From Chitinophagaceae bacterium (GTDB lineage: Bacteria > Bacteroidota > Bacteroidia > Chitinophagales > Chitinophagaceae): 64,000 bases of DNA. Below, piece after piece: positions 54,522-64,000 of this stretch. The notes under the pieces were generated by a model, which saw only the letters and a program-made list of their open reading frames with translations, was not told where the DNA came from and ran no database searches. Each line of letters opens with the position of its first letter. The stretch's first letter is position 1. Made by a program: the position numbers and the translations under genes. Location of the stretch: NCBI GenBank assembly GCA_947374225.1, contig CANCAY010000008.1, forward strand, positions 1 to 64,000, in the 5' to 3' direction.

Positions 54522-57500
54522 ATGTTAAACAAAATCATAGCGTATTCTATCAAGAATAAGCTAATTGTAGGGTTATTCGTTGTTTCGCTTTTAGGCTGGG
54601 GTATTTTTGAAGTCACTAGACTTCCTATTGACGCCGTGCCAGATATTACTGACAATCAGGTTCAGGTTATTACAGTCTCACCTTCCTTAGGGGCCACTGA
54701 CATTGAACGACTAGTTACTTTTCCTATTGAACAAGCTTGTAGTAGTATACCTGGCACCAAACAAATCAGAAGTTTTTCTCGTTTTGGATTGTCCTTAATT
54801 ACCATTGTGTTTAATGACAATATTGATATTTATTGGGCAAGACAACAAATTAGTGAAAAGCTACAAAGAGTGCAACAGGACATACCAGCGGGCACTGGTA
54901 ATCCTGAATTAGCACCTGTATCTACAGGCTTGGGTGAAATTTATCAATATGTAGTGAGACCGTTGAAAGGCTATGAAGGAAAGTATGATGTAATGCAATT
55001 AAGAACTATCCAGGATTGGATCGTTAGACGTCAATTAATTGGAACTCCAGGTGTTGCAGAAGTTGCCAGCTTTGGTGGAAAATTAAAGCAGTATGAAATT
55101 GCGGTAAAGCAGGATCAACTTAAAGCATATGGATTAACTATATCTGATATTTTTAAAGCATTAGAAAGTAATAACCAAAATACAGGAGGCGCGTATATTG
55201 AAAAAGGGCCAACTGTATTATATATAAGAACGGAAGGACTAACTGCGTCCCTAGATGATATTGGAAAAATTGTGGTAAAGCAAGTTAGTGGTGGGGCTCC
55301 CCTGTTAATTAGTGATTTAGCTAAAGTACAATATGGTTCTGCCATTAGATACGGCGCGATGACTTTCAATGACGAAGGAGAAGTTGCAGGTGCGGTGGTT
55401 ATGATGCTGAAAGGTGAAAACGCTTCTGCAGTAGTGAAGCGTGTAAAAGAAAGAATGGCAGAAATTCAAAAAATGTTGCCAGAGGGAGTCGTTATTGAGC
55501 CTTTTTTAGACAGAACTAAAATGGTAAACAATGCTATTAAAACAGTGGAGACCAATTTATTGGAGGGAGCATTAATTGTAATTTTTGTTTTAGTATTTTT
55601 CTTAGGAAATCTACGTGCAGGATTGATTGTTGCTTCTGTTATTCCATTGGCCATGTTATTTGCTGTAATCTTAATGAACCTATTTGGAGTAGGTGGTAAT
55701 TTAATGTCACTTGGAGCTATCGATTTTGGATTAATAGTGGATGGGTCCGTAATTGTAATTGAAGCAATTCTGCATAGGTTCGCGCATTCAAAACATTTTA
55801 GGTCATTGACGTCTATTGATCAGGAGCAGATGGACGAAGAAGTTGGTAAGTCAACAGGTGCCATGATTAAGTCGGCTGTATTTAGTCAGATCATTATTCT
55901 AATAGTGTACTTACCTATTTTATCTTTGCAAGGGATTGAAGGGAAAATGTTCAAACCAATGGCGTATACTATTGCTTTTGCCATTTTTGGAGCATTCTTA
56001 TTGTCAATTACCTATGTACCAATGATGGCTGCTTTGGTTTTGAAAAAGAAATTAAATCATAAGCAGAACTTGACGGATAGGTTAATGAAATGGATAGAAA
56101 CCAAGTATCAACCAATTTTAAATAAGGTATTAGGAATTCCAAAGACAGTGATAGTTTCAACTGTGGTGTTGTTTTCGGTTGCAGTTATTTTGCTTTTAAA
56201 TATGGGTGGTGAATTTATCCCTCAATTGGAAGAAGGTGATTTTGCGGTAGAGACAAGAGTTCTCACAGGAAGCAATTTGAATAATACAATTGAGTCTACC
56301 CAAAAAGCGTCTAAATTACTATTAAAGAATTTCCCAGAAATTCAGAAGATCGTTACTAAAATAGGTAGTGCTGAAATTCCGACCGACCCTATGCCTTTTG
56401 AAGCTGGGGATATGATGGTAATCTTAAAAGATAAAAAAGAGTGGACATCCGCCAAGTCCTTTAGTGAGCTGAGTATGAAAATGACTAAGGTATTGGAACA
56501 GGTTCCAGGTATAACTGTAGGATTTCAGTTTCCTGTTCAAATGAGATTTAATGAATTAATGACAGGCGCTAGGCAGGACGTGGTTTGTAAGATTTTTGGA
56601 GAGAACTTAGATTCTTTAACAAAGTATGCGGGACAGTTAAATAGTATTATTAAAACAGTAGACGGAGCCGTAAATATTTATGAAGAGAAAGTAACCGGGA
56701 TGCCACAGGTAGTGATAAAATATAACCGCGAGGGAATGTCTAAATACGGATTAAATGTAGCGGATATAAATAAAGTAGTGAATGCTGCTTTTGCAGGTCA
56801 AATTGCAGGACAAGTGTATGAGGAAGAGAAAAGGTTTGATATGGTAGTACGCTTAGACGGTGAATCAAGAAAAAACATTTCTGATATTCAAAATCTGTTT
56901 ATTAATACATCGCAGGGAATACAGATACCATTATCCTATGTAGCTAATATTGAAGAGGTAGAAGGGGTGAATCAAATACAAAGAGAAAATACAAAACGCC
57001 GAATTATTGTTGGTTTTAATGTAAATGGCAGAGATGTACAAACTATCATGGGAGAATTACAACAAAAAATTGGAAAAAATTTGAATTTGCAAAAAGGGTA
57101 TACAATTGTTTACGGAGGATCATTTGAAAACATGACCGCTGCAAAACAAAGGTTAAGTATCGTAGTGCCAATTGCATTATTCTTAATTTTCTTATTGCTC
57201 TATTTTGCATTTGGTTCCGTAAAGCAAGGATTGCTAATTTATACTGCAATACCATTGTCTGCAATGGGTGGAATTTTTGCATTGTCTTTAAGAAGTATGC
57301 CTTTTAGTATATCTGCAGGGGTAGGATTTATTGCCTTGTTTGGAGTAGCTGTTTTGAACGGGATTTTATTAGTGTCTGAATTTAACAGACTTAAAGCAGA
57401 AGGTTGGCATGACGTAAAAAGAATTGTTATACATGCAACTAAGTCAAAATTAAGAGCAGTATTAATGACAGCATTGGTTCCTGCTTTGGGTTTTATACCT

Positions 57501-58886
57501 ATGGCAATAAGTACGGGGGCCGGAGGAGAAGTTCAAAAGCCATTGGCAACAGTTGTTATTGGTGGACTAATTATTTCAACTATGCTTACCTTATTTGTAC
57601 TTCCCGTTTTATACATATTATTTGAAACTGGATCAAGTTATTTAAAAATGAATAAAAAACTTCCTATTGCAATTTTAGCTTTATTGTTATTGCAACAAAG
57701 TGCTTTTGCACAAGAAAAAATCAGCATCAATGCTGCCATAGATAGTGCAATTAAAAATAATGCATCAATAAAGGCTTCTAATGAGCAAGTGAATTATTTT
57801 AAAGCGCTTAAAAAAACCAGCTTTGATATCGACAGAACAGTAATAGACTTTGGATATGGTAAATTAAATGGGTTTCAGGATGACAATAGGTATGCTATTT
57901 CTCAAAGTATTCAATTCCCTACTGTTTATAAAAATCAAGGAGCTATTGCAAAGTCAAATATTGTAATAAGCGAACTTACTAAAGTCCAAAAAGAAATAGA
58001 ATTAAGAGCTACTATTAGAAAGCACTTTTACCAGTTATTGGTACTTCAAAGCAAAAGAAAGTTATTGTTAGAAGCAGATAGTATTTATACAGCTTTCGCC
58101 ATAAAAGCAAGACAGCGATTTACTGCAGGTAACACAGATGTACTTGAAAAAATTACAGCAGAGAATCAATTGGTTCAAATTAGTAACCAATTACAGTCTT
58201 TAAATGCAGGGTATGAGATTTTAAACAATCAATTTAATGTATTGTTAAATTGCACTAAATCTTACGAGCCTTTTGATGCAAAAATTGCGATGTCAATTGC
58301 TTCCATTCCGGATTTATTAGTGGTAAGTGAAACTCCTTTGTTAAAAATTCAAGAAAAGAATATTACAAGAGCTACGCAGCAAGTACAATTAGAGAAAAGC
58401 AAATTGCTACCTACTTTTAATTTTGGCTACAATTCATCTACCGTTATAGGCTGGCAAACTACCACTCAAAATAATGAGCGATACTATGGTGCTGGTCACC
58501 GTTTTGCCTCTGTCAATATGGGAATGACGATTCCGATATTTGCAACTGCTCAAAGAGCTAGAATTGCAGCCAATGACGTATTGATAAAACAGAATAAGCT
58601 AGAACAAACAGCCATGTTGCAACAGTTGAGTGCAAACTTGTCAGATGCTATAATTATTTATGCGCAACATAAAAAGTTAGTAGAAAATTATCAAACTAAT
58701 ATTTTACCTAATGCTAATATCTTATTGAAAGCTGCTGCTGACAAATTAAATGCAGGTGAAATAGGATACTTAGAATGGGTAATGATTGTAAATCAAGCTA
58801 TTCAAATTAGAAGTGAATATTTTGGGTATGTGCAGCTATTAAATGAGTCTGCTATAGAAATAGAAAAAATAAGTTCGAATAAATAA
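54522..58886 (+). CDS. CzcA/CusA-family metal efflux RND pump fused to TolC-like protein
   Basis: A 1454-residue fusion. Residues 1-1040 are a CzcA/CusA heavy-metal RND inner-membrane pump: N-terminal helix, LPIDAVPDITDNQVQV near residue 35, proton-relay residues in GAIDFGLIVDGSVIVIEA near 400 (Asp, Asp, Glu), and the last helices near 1015-1040. Residues 1043-1454 are TolC/CzcC-like (coiled coil and strands) and begin with MNKKLPIAILALLLLQQSAFAQ-type sequence, a complete signal peptide. Export of Cu/Zn/Co/Ni-type ions is likely, but the ion is not decidable. Fusions of this kind are known in Bacteroidota. The adaptor gene follows 9 nt later. Confidence 0.93.
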   Translation: MLNKIIAYSIKNKLIVGLFVVSLLGWGIFEVTRLPIDAVPDITDNQVQVITVSPSLGATDIERLVTFPIEQACSSIPGTKQIRSFSRFGLSLITIVFNDNIDIYWARQQISEKLQRVQQDIPAGTGNPELAPVSTGLGEIYQYVVRPLKGYEGKYDVMQLRTIQDWIVRRQLIGTPGVAEVASFGGKLKQYEIAVKQDQLKAYGLTISDIFKALESNNQNTGGAYIEKGPTVLYIRTEGLTASLDDIGKIVVKQVSGGAPLLISDLAKVQYGSAIRYGAMTFNDEGEVAGAVVMMLKGENASAVVKRVKERMAEIQKMLPEGVVIEPFLDRTKMVNNAIKTVETNLLEGALIVIFVLVFFLGNLRAGLIVASVIPLAMLFAVILMNLFGVGGNLMSLGAIDFGLIVDGSVIVIEAILHRFAHSKHFRSLTSIDQEQMDEEVGKSTGAMIKSAVFSQIIILIVYLPILSLQGIEGKMFKPMAYTIAFAIFGAFLLSITYVPMMAALVLKKKLNHKQNLTDRLMKWIETKYQPILNKVLGIPKTVIVSTVVLFSVAVILLLNMGGEFIPQLEEGDFAVETRVLTGSNLNNTIESTQKASKLLLKNFPEIQKIVTKIGSAEIPTDPMPFEAGDMMVILKDKKEWTSAKSFSELSMKMTKVLEQVPGITVGFQFPVQMRFNELMTGARQDVVCKIFGENLDSLTKYAGQLNSIIKTVDGAVNIYEEKVTGMPQVVIKYNREGMSKYGLNVADINKVVNAAFAGQIAGQVYEEEKRFDMVVRLDGESRKNISDIQNLFINTSQGIQIPLSYVANIEEVEGVNQIQRENTKRRIIVGFNVNGRDVQTIMGELQQKIGKNLNLQKGYTIVYGGSFENMTAAKQRLSIVVPIALFLIFLLLYFAFGSVKQGLLIYTAIPLSAMGGIFALSLRSMPFSISAGVGFIALFGVAVLNGILLVSEFNRLKAEGWHDVKRIVIHATKSKLRAVLMTALVPALGFIPMAISTGAGGEVQKPLATVVIGGLIISTMLTLFVLPVLYILFETGSSYLKMNKKLPIAILALLLLQQSAFAQEKISINAAIDSAIKNNASIKASNEQVNYFKALKKTSFDIDRTVIDFGYGKLNGFQDDNRYAISQSIQFPTVYKNQGAIAKSNIVISELTKVQKEIELRATIRKHFYQLLVLQSKRKLLLEADSIYTAFAIKARQRFTAGNTDVLEKITAENQLVQISNQLQSLNAGYEILNNQFNVLLNCTKSYEPFDAKIAMSIASIPDLLVVSETPLLKIQEKNITRATQQVQLEKSKLLPTFNFGYNSSTVIGWQTTTQNNERYYGAGHRFASVNMGMTIPIFATAQRARIAANDVLIKQNKLEQTAMLQQLSANLSDAIIIYAQHKKLVENYQTNILPNANILLKAAADKLNAGEIGYLEWVMIVNQAIQIRSEYFGYVQLLNESAIEIEKISSNK

Positions 58887-60084: not shown

Positions 60085-61281
60085 TTAAAATTTTTCAAAA
60101 TACGCCAAACTGCCACCTACCCAGGTGGCAGTTTGGTTATAATTAACTCCAATCATTTTCCCTTTACTAAGTCTTGTCAAGTTGTTTACGGCAATATATT
60201 TTCCTTTAGCTGCATCCCAAAAATAGAAAAGTCTAATTTCTGCTTTAGCATTCCCTGTTGGCGTTTCAATAACAGGCGCATATTGGACTTTCTCTTGAAT
60301 GATCCAATGCTCAGGATACTTTATAGCATCAATATCCCCGTCTTGGATATCAATTATTACACCTTGACCAGCAAAAGAAAATAAAGGCTTGATGACATAT
60401 CCAGATAAGTCTTTAGGGATCTCGGTGATTTTGTTTAGAAACTGGGTAAATGGAACAGACTCCTGTTTCAGAAAAGGAATACAGTATTTACTAATTCTAA
60501 AAAAATGATGAGGGTGCGTGACCCATTCAACGTTAGTTGCTTGTTTTATTAAAGCGCCTTTCGCTTGAATTGCAGGACTTTGCTTTTCTAATTCGTCTAT
60601 TACAACTCTATTATAAATACGTTCAATTTTGTGTTTAATTCCGTCTCTAATATAATATAGGTTGCCGTCTTCTAGTATTAATTCAGTAATGCATACAATT
60701 GGCAAACTAATTAGCTTGTCAGTAAAGTAAAAATCGACTTTTGTTTTTTGTTGATGCGGAAGAATTTCTAATAAAATAGTATGTTTATTTTGATTGCCCT
60801 TAATCATTAGTTCTAAATGTTTGATATAGTCGGCTCTGGTATATCCATTTAAATAGCAGCTAAAATTTTCGGGAATATCAAAAACAGATTGAATTGCGTC
60901 GTCTTGTAATACTTCAAACCCAAATAGGGAAGGGAACCCTTGAAGTTCTATTAGTTTTGGTATAATATTATTGTTATTGTCAATAGCAATGGCAAAGTCC
61001 ATTACTATACAATTGGGATGACTTGTTTCATTTGGGGTGATTGCATTTTCGGGAATTGCATGTTCTGTCAGAACTTTAAATTGAGGCGATAATAATTGAC
61101 TACAAATGGAATCACCTGCTGCTAATAGTTTTTTGGTAAAATCAATACCAACGAAAATGGGAGTTTCTGCAATTCTAAATTGTATGCTATCAGGAATGGC
61201 ATTTTCTATGAATGACAAATAGCTTTCATACTTGGCTTGGGTAAAGGAGTTGTTGAATGTTTTTCTTAAATCAGGAATCAT
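60085..61281 (-). CDS. ATP-grasp domain protein, unrecognised family
   Basis: A 398-residue cytoplasmic protein that I cannot assign to a named family. The C-terminal third fits an ATP-grasp fold: a nucleotide-loop GYVIKPLFSFAGQGV near residue 294 with a Lys at 298, the hinge WIIQEKV near 326, AEIRLFYF near 347 and NNLTRLSKG near 366 (metal/phosphate Asn and Arg). The N-terminal two-thirds would bind the acceptor. It is the last of three minus-strand genes. Its ATG overlaps the stop of the amidotransferase gene by 4 nt. A perfect 14-bp inverted repeat lies at its 3' end. A role as glutamine-fed ligase is inferred. Confidence 0.7.
   Translation of the reverse strand: MIPDLRKTFNNSFTQAKYESYLSFIENAIPDSIQFRIAETPIFVGIDFTKKLLAAGDSICSQLLSPQFKVLTEHAIPENAITPNETSHPNCIVMDFAIAIDNNNNIIPKLIELQGFPSLFGFEVLQDDAIQSVFDIPENFSCYLNGYTRADYIKHLELMIKGNQNKHTILLEILPHQQKTKVDFYFTDKLISLPIVCITELILEDGNLYYIRDGIKHKIERIYNRVVIDELEKQSPAIQAKGALIKQATNVEWVTHPHHFFRISKYCIPFLKQESVPFTQFLNKITEIPKDLSGYVIKPLFSFAGQGVIIDIQDGDIDAIKYPEHWIIQEKVQYAPVIETPTGNAKAEIRLFYFWDAAKGKYIAVNNLTRLSKGKMIGVNYNQTATWVGGSLAYFEKF
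60105..60136. repeat. Perfect 14-bp inverted repeat inside coding 3' end
   Basis: Perfect 14-bp arms around a 4-nt ACCC loop, lying within the last 18 codons of the ATP-grasp gene (residues around NQTATWVGGSLA). It could act as a terminator-like barrier for the convergent adaptor gene. No clear T-tract follows on either strand. Confidence 0.7.
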
Positions 61282-62063
61282 CCTTTTAATGCTTTATCAA
61301 GAAAATTAGGAATAAAATTGGAGAACGTATTAGTCGTTTTGCTAGTATCTGCTAATTTCATCATAATTTTCTCCCACTTTGCGATGCCAAATTCTTCCGT
61401 GATGGAGGCTTTGGTTTCGGGGTCATTAAAATAAGTCAATAAAATAGTACTCTCTCCTTCGGGATGAAATTGAACACCATATATATATTCATTGAATTTA
61501 ACAGCCATAATTGCACGTTCTAATGGTATGTCAGGTCTTATTTTTTCTAAAGCTAAAATTTGTGCACCCATTTCCGCTATTGCATTGTCATTAGGTTCGG
61601 TAATTTGATAGTATCTACTTTCTAGTGCGTAGAATGGGTCGCCTAAATTATGGAATAGACTGTCCTCAATAATTGGGTGTACTGGAAGAATACCAATTTG
61701 CCTAGACTTTCTTAATGAAATTTTGCCAATTTCAAAATGTCTACACGCCATTTGAAAGCTATGACAAATTAAGAATACCCATTTCTTTCTATTCATTATA
61801 GCTTCCAGCCATTGCGTATAAGCAGTATCCCATTCGCTATCTTTAGAGTCTACAGGAGAACCGGGCCCTCCGGTAGAAATATAAACATCGTAACTAAAAT
61901 CTGGGATTTGAGTCTGCACGCGTACATTATAGACGTTAATGACAAGGGATAACTTGTTCTTATTGGCCCAAATATTCAGCACTTCTAAAATACAGGTCAT
62001 TCCTAAATTAGGACTGCCGTCATACATATCAAGTATTGCAACTTTAAAGGGGGAAGATTGCAT
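61278..62063 (-). CDS. Class I glutamine amidotransferase
   Basis: A 261-residue type-1 GATase-like protein. The oxyanion region is ISTGGPGSP near residue 62, the nucleophile Cys100 is in FLICHSFQMA and His200-Pro-Glu202 is in GVQFHPEGES, so the Cys-His-Glu triad is intact. It resembles the GuaA N-terminal domain in pattern but has no synthetase domain. It would release ammonia from glutamine. It overlaps both neighbours (1 nt with the M42 gene, 4 nt with the ATP-grasp gene), the best sign that it feeds the ATP-grasp protein. Confidence 0.85.
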   Translation of the reverse strand: MQSSPFKVAILDMYDGSPNLGMTCILEVLNIWANKNKLSLVINVYNVRVQTQIPDFSYDVYISTGGPGSPVDSKDSEWDTAYTQWLEAIMNRKKWVFLICHSFQMACRHFEIGKISLRKSRQIGILPVHPIIEDSLFHNLGDPFYALESRYYQITEPNDNAIAEMGAQILALEKIRPDIPLERAIMAVKFNEYIYGVQFHPEGESTILLTYFNDPETKASITEEFGIAKWEKIMMKLADTSKTTNTFSNFIPNFLDKALKG

Positions 62064-63190
62064 TATAAATAACTTAAGTTAGTCTTAGGTGTTAAGTTTA
62101 AAAGCGTCTCATACATTAGCTCAATAGTATCTGCAATATCTTTCTTGTGAATCATTTCCACTGTTGTGTGCATGTATCTTAATGGAATTGAAATTAATAC
62201 CGATGGACAACCATCATTTGCATAAGCGAAACTATCAGTATCAGTTCCGGTACTTCTACTAAGTGTTCTAAATTGTACGGGTATTTTTTTATTCTTAGCA
62301 GTTTCTTCTACAATTGCCAAAAGCTTATTGTGAATTGCAGGCGCATACGCTAAAGAAGGACCTTTGCCACATAAAATATCACCTTCAATGGCTTTATTAA
62401 TCATAGGGGTATGTGTGTCATGTGTAACGTCTGTTACAATAGCAATATTAGGTTTAATACGACGTGCTATCATTTCAGCACCTCTTAATCCAATTTCTTC
62501 TTGAACAGCATTCACAATATATAAACCAAATGGAAGTTTCTTTTTATTCTCTTTTAAAAGCCTAGCAACTTCTGCTATCATAAATCCGCCAATACGATTG
62601 TCAAAAGCACGACCAATAATAAAATCATGCGCTAGTTCTTCAAATCCATCCGTATAGGTAACCACGGCGCCAATATGAATACCTAGTGCTTCAACTTCTT
62701 TTTTAGTTCTTGCTCCGCAGTCTAAAGTAAGATTATCCACTTTTGGTTGTGGTTCTTTTTGTTCCGGGTTGCTCATTCTAGTATGAATAGCAGGCCATCC
62801 AAATACTGCTTTAACTGGTCCTTTTTTCCCATGAATCCAAACTCGCATACTAGGCGCAATTTGATGATCCACGCCTCCATTTCTTTTTAAATGAATAAGT
62901 CCTTGGTCATTGATATAATTTACGAACCAACTAATTTCGTCAGCATGCGCTTCAATGACAACTTTAAATGCAGCATCAGGATTTATAACACCTACTGCAG
63001 TTCCATAAGGATCTGTAAAAGTGGTGTCAACATATTTCGTCAAATAGTTTAACCAAATTTTTTGTCCACTAGTTTCAAATCCAACAGGAGAAGGATTGTT
63101 GATATAAGTTTTTAAAAACTCATAAGACCCTGGGTTTATAAATGCTTTTTTACTAGTTCCACTTGATTTTTTTGAAGCTGCTTTTGCCAT
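62063..63190 (-). CDS. M42-family metallo-aminopeptidase
   Basis: A 375-residue M42 (glutamyl aminopeptidase/tetrahedral aminopeptidase-like) enzyme. Zinc ligands are His82 (AHADE), Asp197 (FDNRIG), Glu232 (QEEIG), Asp254 (VTDVTHDT) and His341 (MHTTVE). Glu231 is the general base. A basic N-terminal stretch (residues 1-16, rich in Lys/Ser) precedes the fold. It is the first gene of the operon; its stop overlaps the GATase start by 1 nt. The role with the two partners is unknown. Confidence 0.92.
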   Translation of the reverse strand: MAKAASKKSSGTSKKAFINPGSYEFLKTYINNPSPVGFETSGQKIWLNYLTKYVDTTFTDPYGTAVGVINPDAAFKVVIEAHADEISWFVNYINDQGLIHLKRNGGVDHQIAPSMRVWIHGKKGPVKAVFGWPAIHTRMSNPEQKEPQPKVDNLTLDCGARTKKEVEALGIHIGAVVTYTDGFEELAHDFIIGRAFDNRIGGFMIAEVARLLKENKKKLPFGLYIVNAVQEEIGLRGAEMIARRIKPNIAIVTDVTHDTHTPMINKAIEGDILCGKGPSLAYAPAIHNKLLAIVEETAKNKKIPVQFRTLSRSTGTDTDSFAYANDGCPSVLISIPLRYMHTTVEMIHKKDIADTIELMYETLLNLTPKTNLSYL

Positions 63191-63293: not shown

Positions 63294-64000
63294 ATGATTC
63301 AAGCTCCCTTTGAAATAGAAAAATTATGGAATCTGAGTACAGATCAGTTCTTGGCGTTAAGTAAAACCCTGTTTAATTGGCAGGCTACACATAACAAAGT
63401 CTATAAAGAATGGGTTAAATTATCCTCAGGAGGGATAGATAACCCAAATGCACTAACCCAGATCCCGTTTTTGCCCATTTCTTTTTTTAAAACACATGAT
63501 GTGTTGGTAGGAGAAAAGCCAGAATTGTATTTTGAAAGTAGTGGGACTACAATGGACGTAGTGAGTAAACATTGGGTAGCCGAACCCACTATCTATGAAC
63601 AAAGTTTCAATCATTGTTTTAATTTATTTTATGGCAATCCTGCTGACTATTGTGTAATTGGATTATTACCCTCTTATTTAGAGAGACAGCATTCCTCCTT
63701 AGTGTATATGGTGGAGCATTTAATCAAACAATCCGGACATGCACAAAGTGGATTTTATTTAAATGATTTCGAACAATTGAGTACTAACTTAAAAGTACTA
63801 GAAGCGAATAATCAAAAGACCATTTTAATTGGTGTAAGTTTTGCCTTAATAGATTTTGCAGACGCTTACCCACAACAATTAAAAAACACTATTGTGATGG
63901 AGACTGGTGGGATGAAAGGGAGAAGAGAAGAGATGATAAAATCTGAATTACATGCTTATTTAAAGGAGCGATTAGGGGTTTCACAAATTCATTCTGAATA
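63294..64000 (+). CDS. LuxE-like acyl-protein synthetase (partial at window end)
   Basis: The frame runs open from the ATG at 63294 to the window edge (about 235 residues), so the C-terminus is missing. It resembles the LuxE/PaaK-type acyl-protein synthetase family of Bacteroidota. FLPISFFKTHDV is near residue 60, YFESSGTT near 80 (AMP-binding Ser/Thr-rich loop) and the conserved METGGMKGRREEM near 203. Such enzymes activate an acyl group as an adenylate and pass it to a protein or thiol. Its acceptor is unknown. It is divergent from the M42 operon. Confidence 0.82.
   Translation, partial: MIQAPFEIEKLWNLSTDQFLALSKTLFNWQATHNKVYKEWVKLSSGGIDNPNALTQIPFLPISFFKTHDVLVGEKPELYFESSGTTMDVVSKHWVAEPTIYEQSFNHCFNLFYGNPADYCVIGLLPSYLERQHSSLVYMVEHLIKQSGHAQSGFYLNDFEQLSTNLKVLEANNQKTILIGVSFALIDFADAYPQQLKNTIVMETGGMKGRREEMIKSELHAYLKERLGVSQIHSE

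Follow-up and report, generated by a model that had tools for sequence, protein, structure and literature searches.

Within a window of 64,000 nucleotides from a Chitinophagaceae bacterium (the whole stretch of DNA analysed here; contig CANCAY010000008.1), three adjoining genes encode an M42 aminopeptidase (M42), a protein of the class I glutamine amidotransferase (GATase) fold, hereafter GAT, and an ATP-grasp ligase, hereafter ATPG. Our analysis suggests, at a probability of roughly 0.4, that GAT and ATPG jointly catalyse a single step, as a glutamine-fed amide ligase, in an amidoligase pathway conserved in Bacteroidota. Both the pairing of the two genes and the folds of their products are observed directly, and we infer the chemistry, the substrate, the transfer of ammonia and the role of M42.

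The pairing was followed through 149 genomes of the order to which the window belongs and 395 genomes of its phylum, Bacteroidota. In the order, ATPG gave 51 raw and 49 strong matches and GAT 52 raw and 49 strong, and the two strong sets consist of the same 49 genomes, even where the genes are unlinked, bearing out the proposal of the initial annotation that the two belong together. The corresponding Fisher value of 1.5e-40 overstates independence, because neighbouring genomes share ancestry; four families (f1, f12, f14 and f18) each contain genomes with and without the pair. In the phylum sample, strong ATPG matches occur in 114 genomes: inside the class (order included) 48 genomes carry ATPG and the same 48 carry GAT, and outside it both genes occur in 21 genomes, ATPG alone in 45 and GAT alone in 17. 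In 64 of 80 named loci GAT precedes ATPG on the same strand at a distance of no more than 1.5 kb (for six of the 80, less than 2.5 kb of sequence is available upstream). Of 20 further relatives, 13 have GAT upstream in the same orientation and one has it close by on the opposite strand; six show no GAT within ~7 kb. Since many Bacteroidota either retain both GAT and ATPG or lack both, the two probably serve the same uncharacterised pathway. Spread by plasmids was considered and rejected: a tblastn search for ATPG in 72,556 plasmid records returned no match at E up to 1e-3.

At the locus itself, the open reading frames (Table 1) confirm the earlier description of three minus-strand genes with stop/start overlaps of one and four nucleotides. 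Read on the minus strand, the M42/GAT junction is TATAATGCAA, where the TAA of M42 and the ATG of GAT have one base in common, and the GAT/ATPG junction is AGGATGATT, where the ATG of ATPG and the TGA of GAT overlap by 4 nt. The nearest relatives, loci L072 and L073, share 96–97% identity with the window in M42, 88–91% in GAT and 81–84% in ATPG, with ratios of non-synonymous to synonymous substitution (dN/dS) of 0.02, 0.06–0.08 and 0.08–0.09, respectively. Because both overlaps are kept and dN/dS is low in these two loci, M42, GAT and ATPG are real genes under purifying selection and are probably co-translated. In a third locus, L077, the M42/GAT overlap is retained and GAT and ATPG are separated by a few bases; silent sites are saturated for GAT and ATPG in the dN/dS comparison with this locus. 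The record holding L072 is titled Comamonas sp., although its ATPG is 84% identical to that of the window, and is probably a mislabelled metagenome bin.

Table 1 Features of the M42–GAT–ATPG locus in the window.
Feature	Positions	Strand	Remarks
ATP-grasp ligase (ATPG), 398 aa	60085..61281	-	permuted glutathione-synthetase/YgiC/GspS fold; conserved D95, E112-x-Q114, KPLFSFAGQGV loop (K298-V308)
Class I glutamine amidotransferase-fold protein (GAT), 261 aa	61278..62063	-	triad C100/H200/E202; C-terminal part helical
M42 aminopeptidase, 375 aa	62063..63190	-	operon partner, lineage-specific
M42/GAT stop/start overlap TAATG, one base (shared base 62063)	62061..62065	-	kept in L072, L073, L077
GAT/ATPG stop/start overlap ATGA, four bases	61278..61281	-	kept in L072, L073; not L077

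ATPG had been described as carrying ATP-grasp motifs in a protein of no known family. Structure prediction gave a confident model with an ATP-grasp fold, of the permuted kind and spanning the whole chain, and Foldseek placed it close to the yeast eukaryotic-type glutathione synthetase (E 2.9e-14). The ATP-grasp nature of the protein therefore stands, and its lack of a family does not: ATPG is a divergent relative of the superfamily of permuted ATP-grasp, GSP_synth and eukaryotic-type glutathione synthetase proteins. The window protein alone reached no Pfam cut-off, its only match being ATPgrasp_ST (E 0.0086, 15.7 bits vs 31.4), and a first single-protein scan of genome contigs found no relative; searches of the PDB with single sequences returned no match for ATPG (E up to 10) or GAT (E up to 0.01), and with the ATPG profile only three (E 0.15–0.23), one of them YgiC. 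With E up to 1 allowed, CP_ATPgrasp_2 matches 33 of 75 aligned ATPG members (best E 2e-6) but misses the window protein, and hhalign against YgiC/YjfC/Gss gave a probability of 50% (E 1.6e-4) over just 48 columns round the KP loop. In structural alignments ATPG is 11–14% identical to the YgiC/YjfC peptide-spermidine ligases and glutathionylspermidine synthetase (GSP_synth), and it differs from them in having a GATase partner and in departing from the motifs of GspS/YgiC (RxD, ExN, KPxxxREG): the Arg preceding D95 is replaced and the Asn of ExN is Gln. The eukaryotic-type glutathione/homoglutathione synthetases have the same permuted fold and are ~10–12% identical; in contrast to them, ATPG is bacterial and GATase-paired.

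The GATase triad of GAT, reported as intact by the initial annotation, is confirmed: none of the 59 aligned members departs from C100, H200 and E202. GAT passes PF00117 (33.7 bits vs a cut-off of 22.8) and falls below the threshold of the GatD-type family PF07685 GATase_3 (12.8 bits vs 27). Class I GATases also work with a separate ATP-using ligase in carbamoyl-phosphate synthase (CarA/CarB) and in MurT-GatD; the ligases there, the large double ATP-grasp CarB and the Mur ligase MurT, both differ from ATPG in not being permuted ATP-grasps. Carbamoyl-phosphate synthase, the earlier example of such a pair, thus does not apply as a model, as the 398-aa ATPG, a permuted ATP-grasp of glutathione-synthetase type, is unlike its large chain.

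From the fold of ATPG, formation of an acyl phosphate on a carboxylate, which is then passed to an amine, is expected. In the glutamine-fed ligase, the substrate of ATPG would be a small gamma-glutamyl or peptide-like acid, whose carboxylate the enzyme would activate in this way at the cost of ATP, and GAT would hydrolyse glutamine and supply ammonia to yield a terminal amide; with GAT present, glutamine-derived ammonia is the simplest nucleophile for ATPG. Where the gene set is complete, the acid would be made by an R2K-like ATP-grasp and a carboxylate-amine ligase of the GCS2 family, and trimming of the substrate, product or by-products could fall to esterases or to peptidases such as M42 here and an M29-type protein elsewhere.

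This gene set is seen in relatives of the window, where esterases (PF00756), the R2K-like ATP-grasp (PF18299 with E 0.0035 and the NCBIfam RimK family with 35.9 bits, both under cut-off) and the GCS2 ligase (NF010039 carboxylate-amine ligase, 547 bits vs 371) can precede the pair. The complete gene order is present in Chitinophaga fulva and two Mucilaginibacter loci; near ATPG in the 20 further relatives, the R2K-like gene occurs in 10 and GCS2 in five, and in other members of the window's family the two genes are grouped with each other at a different site. Genome-wide strong matches in the order follow the pair for the R2K-like gene (47 of the 49 pair genomes and 2 others), for GCS2 (32 of 49 and 1 other) and for the first esterase or its paralogues (46 of 49 and 1 other). 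The window genome also carries a GCS2 gene (G000:C5:73471-74550; 508 bits vs 371). Hence the pair probably belongs to an uncharacterised Bacteroidota amidoligase gene set for a small peptide-like molecule, in which the GCS2 ligase parallels the glutamate-cysteine ligase of the eukaryotic-type glutathione system. A role in anti-phage defence was considered as well and rejected, since a PADLOC search with six proteins, up to E 0.01, gave no match.

Outside the class, where GAT and ATPG part company, we searched 80 genomes for replacements (17 GAT-only, 45 ATPG-only and 18 with both). A second permuted ATP-grasp gave strong matches in 16 of the 17 GAT-only genomes; of the 45 ATPG-only genomes a single one matched strongly (G277, 366 bits), and the 18 with both gave no strong match. 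This second protein was read as the gene before GAT in 7 of 12 fetched GAT-only loci and lies beside GAT in some others. The R2K-like gene is present in 75 of the 80 genomes. One member scores 37.3 bits against PF14403 (cut-off 32). The hhalign comparison of the two permuted families is weak (probability 1.7%, E 0.03, 128 columns), so that their kinship rests on Pfam and motifs. Taken across the phylum sample, 85 of 86 genomes with GAT also carry one or other permuted ATP-grasp: GAT is nearly always accompanied by such a protein, and ATPG can do without GAT. This asymmetry fits a glutaminase subunit, and it also fits a gamma-glutamyl peptidase that acts on substrate or product. Conceivably, and more tentatively than the shared step itself, the pair represents a new kind of amide synthetase that depends on glutamine: a circularly permuted ATP-grasp of glutathione-synthetase fold would receive its ammonia from a class I GATase, two distantly related permuted ATP-grasps would share one GATase family, and the product would be an amidated gamma-glutamyl or peptide metabolite (an osmolyte or redox peptide) across Bacteroidota.

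Several observations weigh against a glutamine-fed ligase. ATPG occurs without a strong GAT match in 45 of the 114 ATPG genomes, so GAT is not always needed, and proteins with a fold related to that of ATPG take amines, for example glycine or spermidine, rather than ammonia from a channel. In the ATPG loop, the Arg and Glu of YgiC are replaced by Phe/Ala; GspS itself carries RCG in the corresponding loop. Only 11 of the 80 named loci carry GCS2 or the R2K-like gene in the neighbourhood of ATPG, and the window genome, at 92% completeness, has no match to the R2K-like ATP-grasp. The structural Z of GAT is higher for plant gamma-glutamyl peptidase 1 (GGP1; 22.5) than for glutaminase subunits with a known synthase (GMP synthase 20.0, anthranilate synthase 19.8, carbamoyl-phosphate synthase 17.9–18.1), the matches to the latter being shorter. 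Finally, an M29-type protein (one member at 55.8 bits vs 27) scores above 500 bits in 8 of the 45 ATPG-only genomes and in none of the 35 others searched; among 20 fetched ATPG-only loci, it stands between GCS2 and ATPG, a place held by GAT in other loci, in four, and GCS2 lies directly before ATPG in two. An M29-type protein in this place fits a hydrolase role for GAT better.

These last observations favour a close rival, only slightly less likely than the glutamine-fed ligase: that GAT is a gamma-glutamyl peptidase and not an ammonia donor. GCS2 or another ligase would then add a gamma-glutamyl group, ATPG would join an amine or amino acid to the opposite end, and GAT would strip the gamma-glutamyl group or degrade the product, a task in which M29- or M42-type peptidases could substitute. 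Both the membership of GCS2 in the gene set and the ranking of Arabidopsis GGP1 among the top folds of GAT, above the glutaminase subunits (Foldseek, VIA), speak for this arrangement. PuuD is a gamma-glutamyl peptidase comparable to GGP1. GGP1 itself removes gamma-Glu from glutathione conjugates.

In the remaining ATPG-only loci fetched, a sodium-solute symporter gene lies beside ATPG in four and an amidohydrolase gene in three, and seven have none of these neighbours. Such a symporter gene adjoins ATPG in L193–L195 and L197 (f49 genomes), and L193 may hold a fusion of the two, its ATPG frame running on without a stop across the symporter (867 aa). In the ATPG tree, a long branch (0.65) leads to the window clade (10 rows), and of the three end branches flagged as long, two (L084, 1.77; L079, 1.14) fall inside this clade; together with the missing R2K-like match, this long branch may reflect a changed role.

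The part of M42 is a different matter. Its zinc site had been called intact, and the motifs H82, D197, E231/E232, D254 and H341, which we take to be the metal ligands, are all present in a protein that passes PF05343 with 256 bits (cut-off 23.2). The proposed three-gene link holds in part. The M42–GAT–ATPG order is kept in one Sediminibacterium-type branch, with M42 adjoining the pair in 28 of the 80 named loci; this adjacency is clustered on the ATPG tree (3 changes vs 23 in shuffles) and may have arisen once, and within its branch M42 beside GAT and ATPG is a stable operon. As a general partner of the pair, M42 is rejected: close homologues (at least 250 bits) are equally common in the order with the pair (36 of 49) and without it (72 of 100).

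That equal frequency would also be expected if the operon were one of convenience, with M42 a housekeeping aminopeptidase and GAT and ATPG catalysing separate reactions of the same pathway, no joint enzyme being formed. The unlinked genes in several genomes (for example G047, G107 and G068) and the parting of the two outside the class agree with this, but the identical strong-match sets in order and class, the survival of the overlaps through divergence in L072 and L073 and the clustered M42 adjacency make it unlikely.

A working parallel to the three genes, though not a relative, is the NAGGN osmolyte operon, in which asparagine synthase (AsnO), Ngg and a glutamyl aminopeptidase (M42) occur together (PMC8070244), that is, an amide-forming enzyme, a peptide-forming enzyme and an M42 aminopeptidase in one operon. 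AsnO is of the asparagine-synthase type and Ngg belongs to the GNAT family (PMC8070244), whereas GAT has the class I GATase fold. Membership of the window genes in this system is excluded, as M42 scores 45.2 bits against the TIGR03106 cut-off of 397.75 and GAT is not of the asparagine-synthase type.

Elsewhere in the window, a plus-strand gene divergent from M42 (63294-63998, running off the window) appears LuxE-like by eye only, and a 51% identical copy is also divergent to M42 in the congener locus L032. A 1454-aa open reading frame on the plus strand (54522-58886) resembles, by eye, a heavy-metal RND efflux pump and a TolC-like outer-membrane part in a single frame.

The fold families concerned are already known. 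Among the open-access papers listed by our searches, none names this gene set or describes a class I GATase combined with a permuted ATP-grasp, a search that did not cover the amidoligase survey of Iyer et al. 2009, so that an earlier description is possible. That survey reportedly dealt with amidoligase neighbourhoods in which ATP-grasp and other amide ligases are linked with peptidases.

To our knowledge, these bacteria mostly lack glutathione, and the gene set, with ATPG in 114 of the 395 phylum genomes, predicts a small amide-bonded metabolite in them. The clean co-occurrence, together with the swaps to a second ATP-grasp or an M29-type protein, leads to testable predictions of the task of each enzyme. 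If GAT and ATPG do form a glutamine-fed ligase, they would add to the known routes to peptide amides one in which a permuted ATP-grasp is partnered by a GATase.
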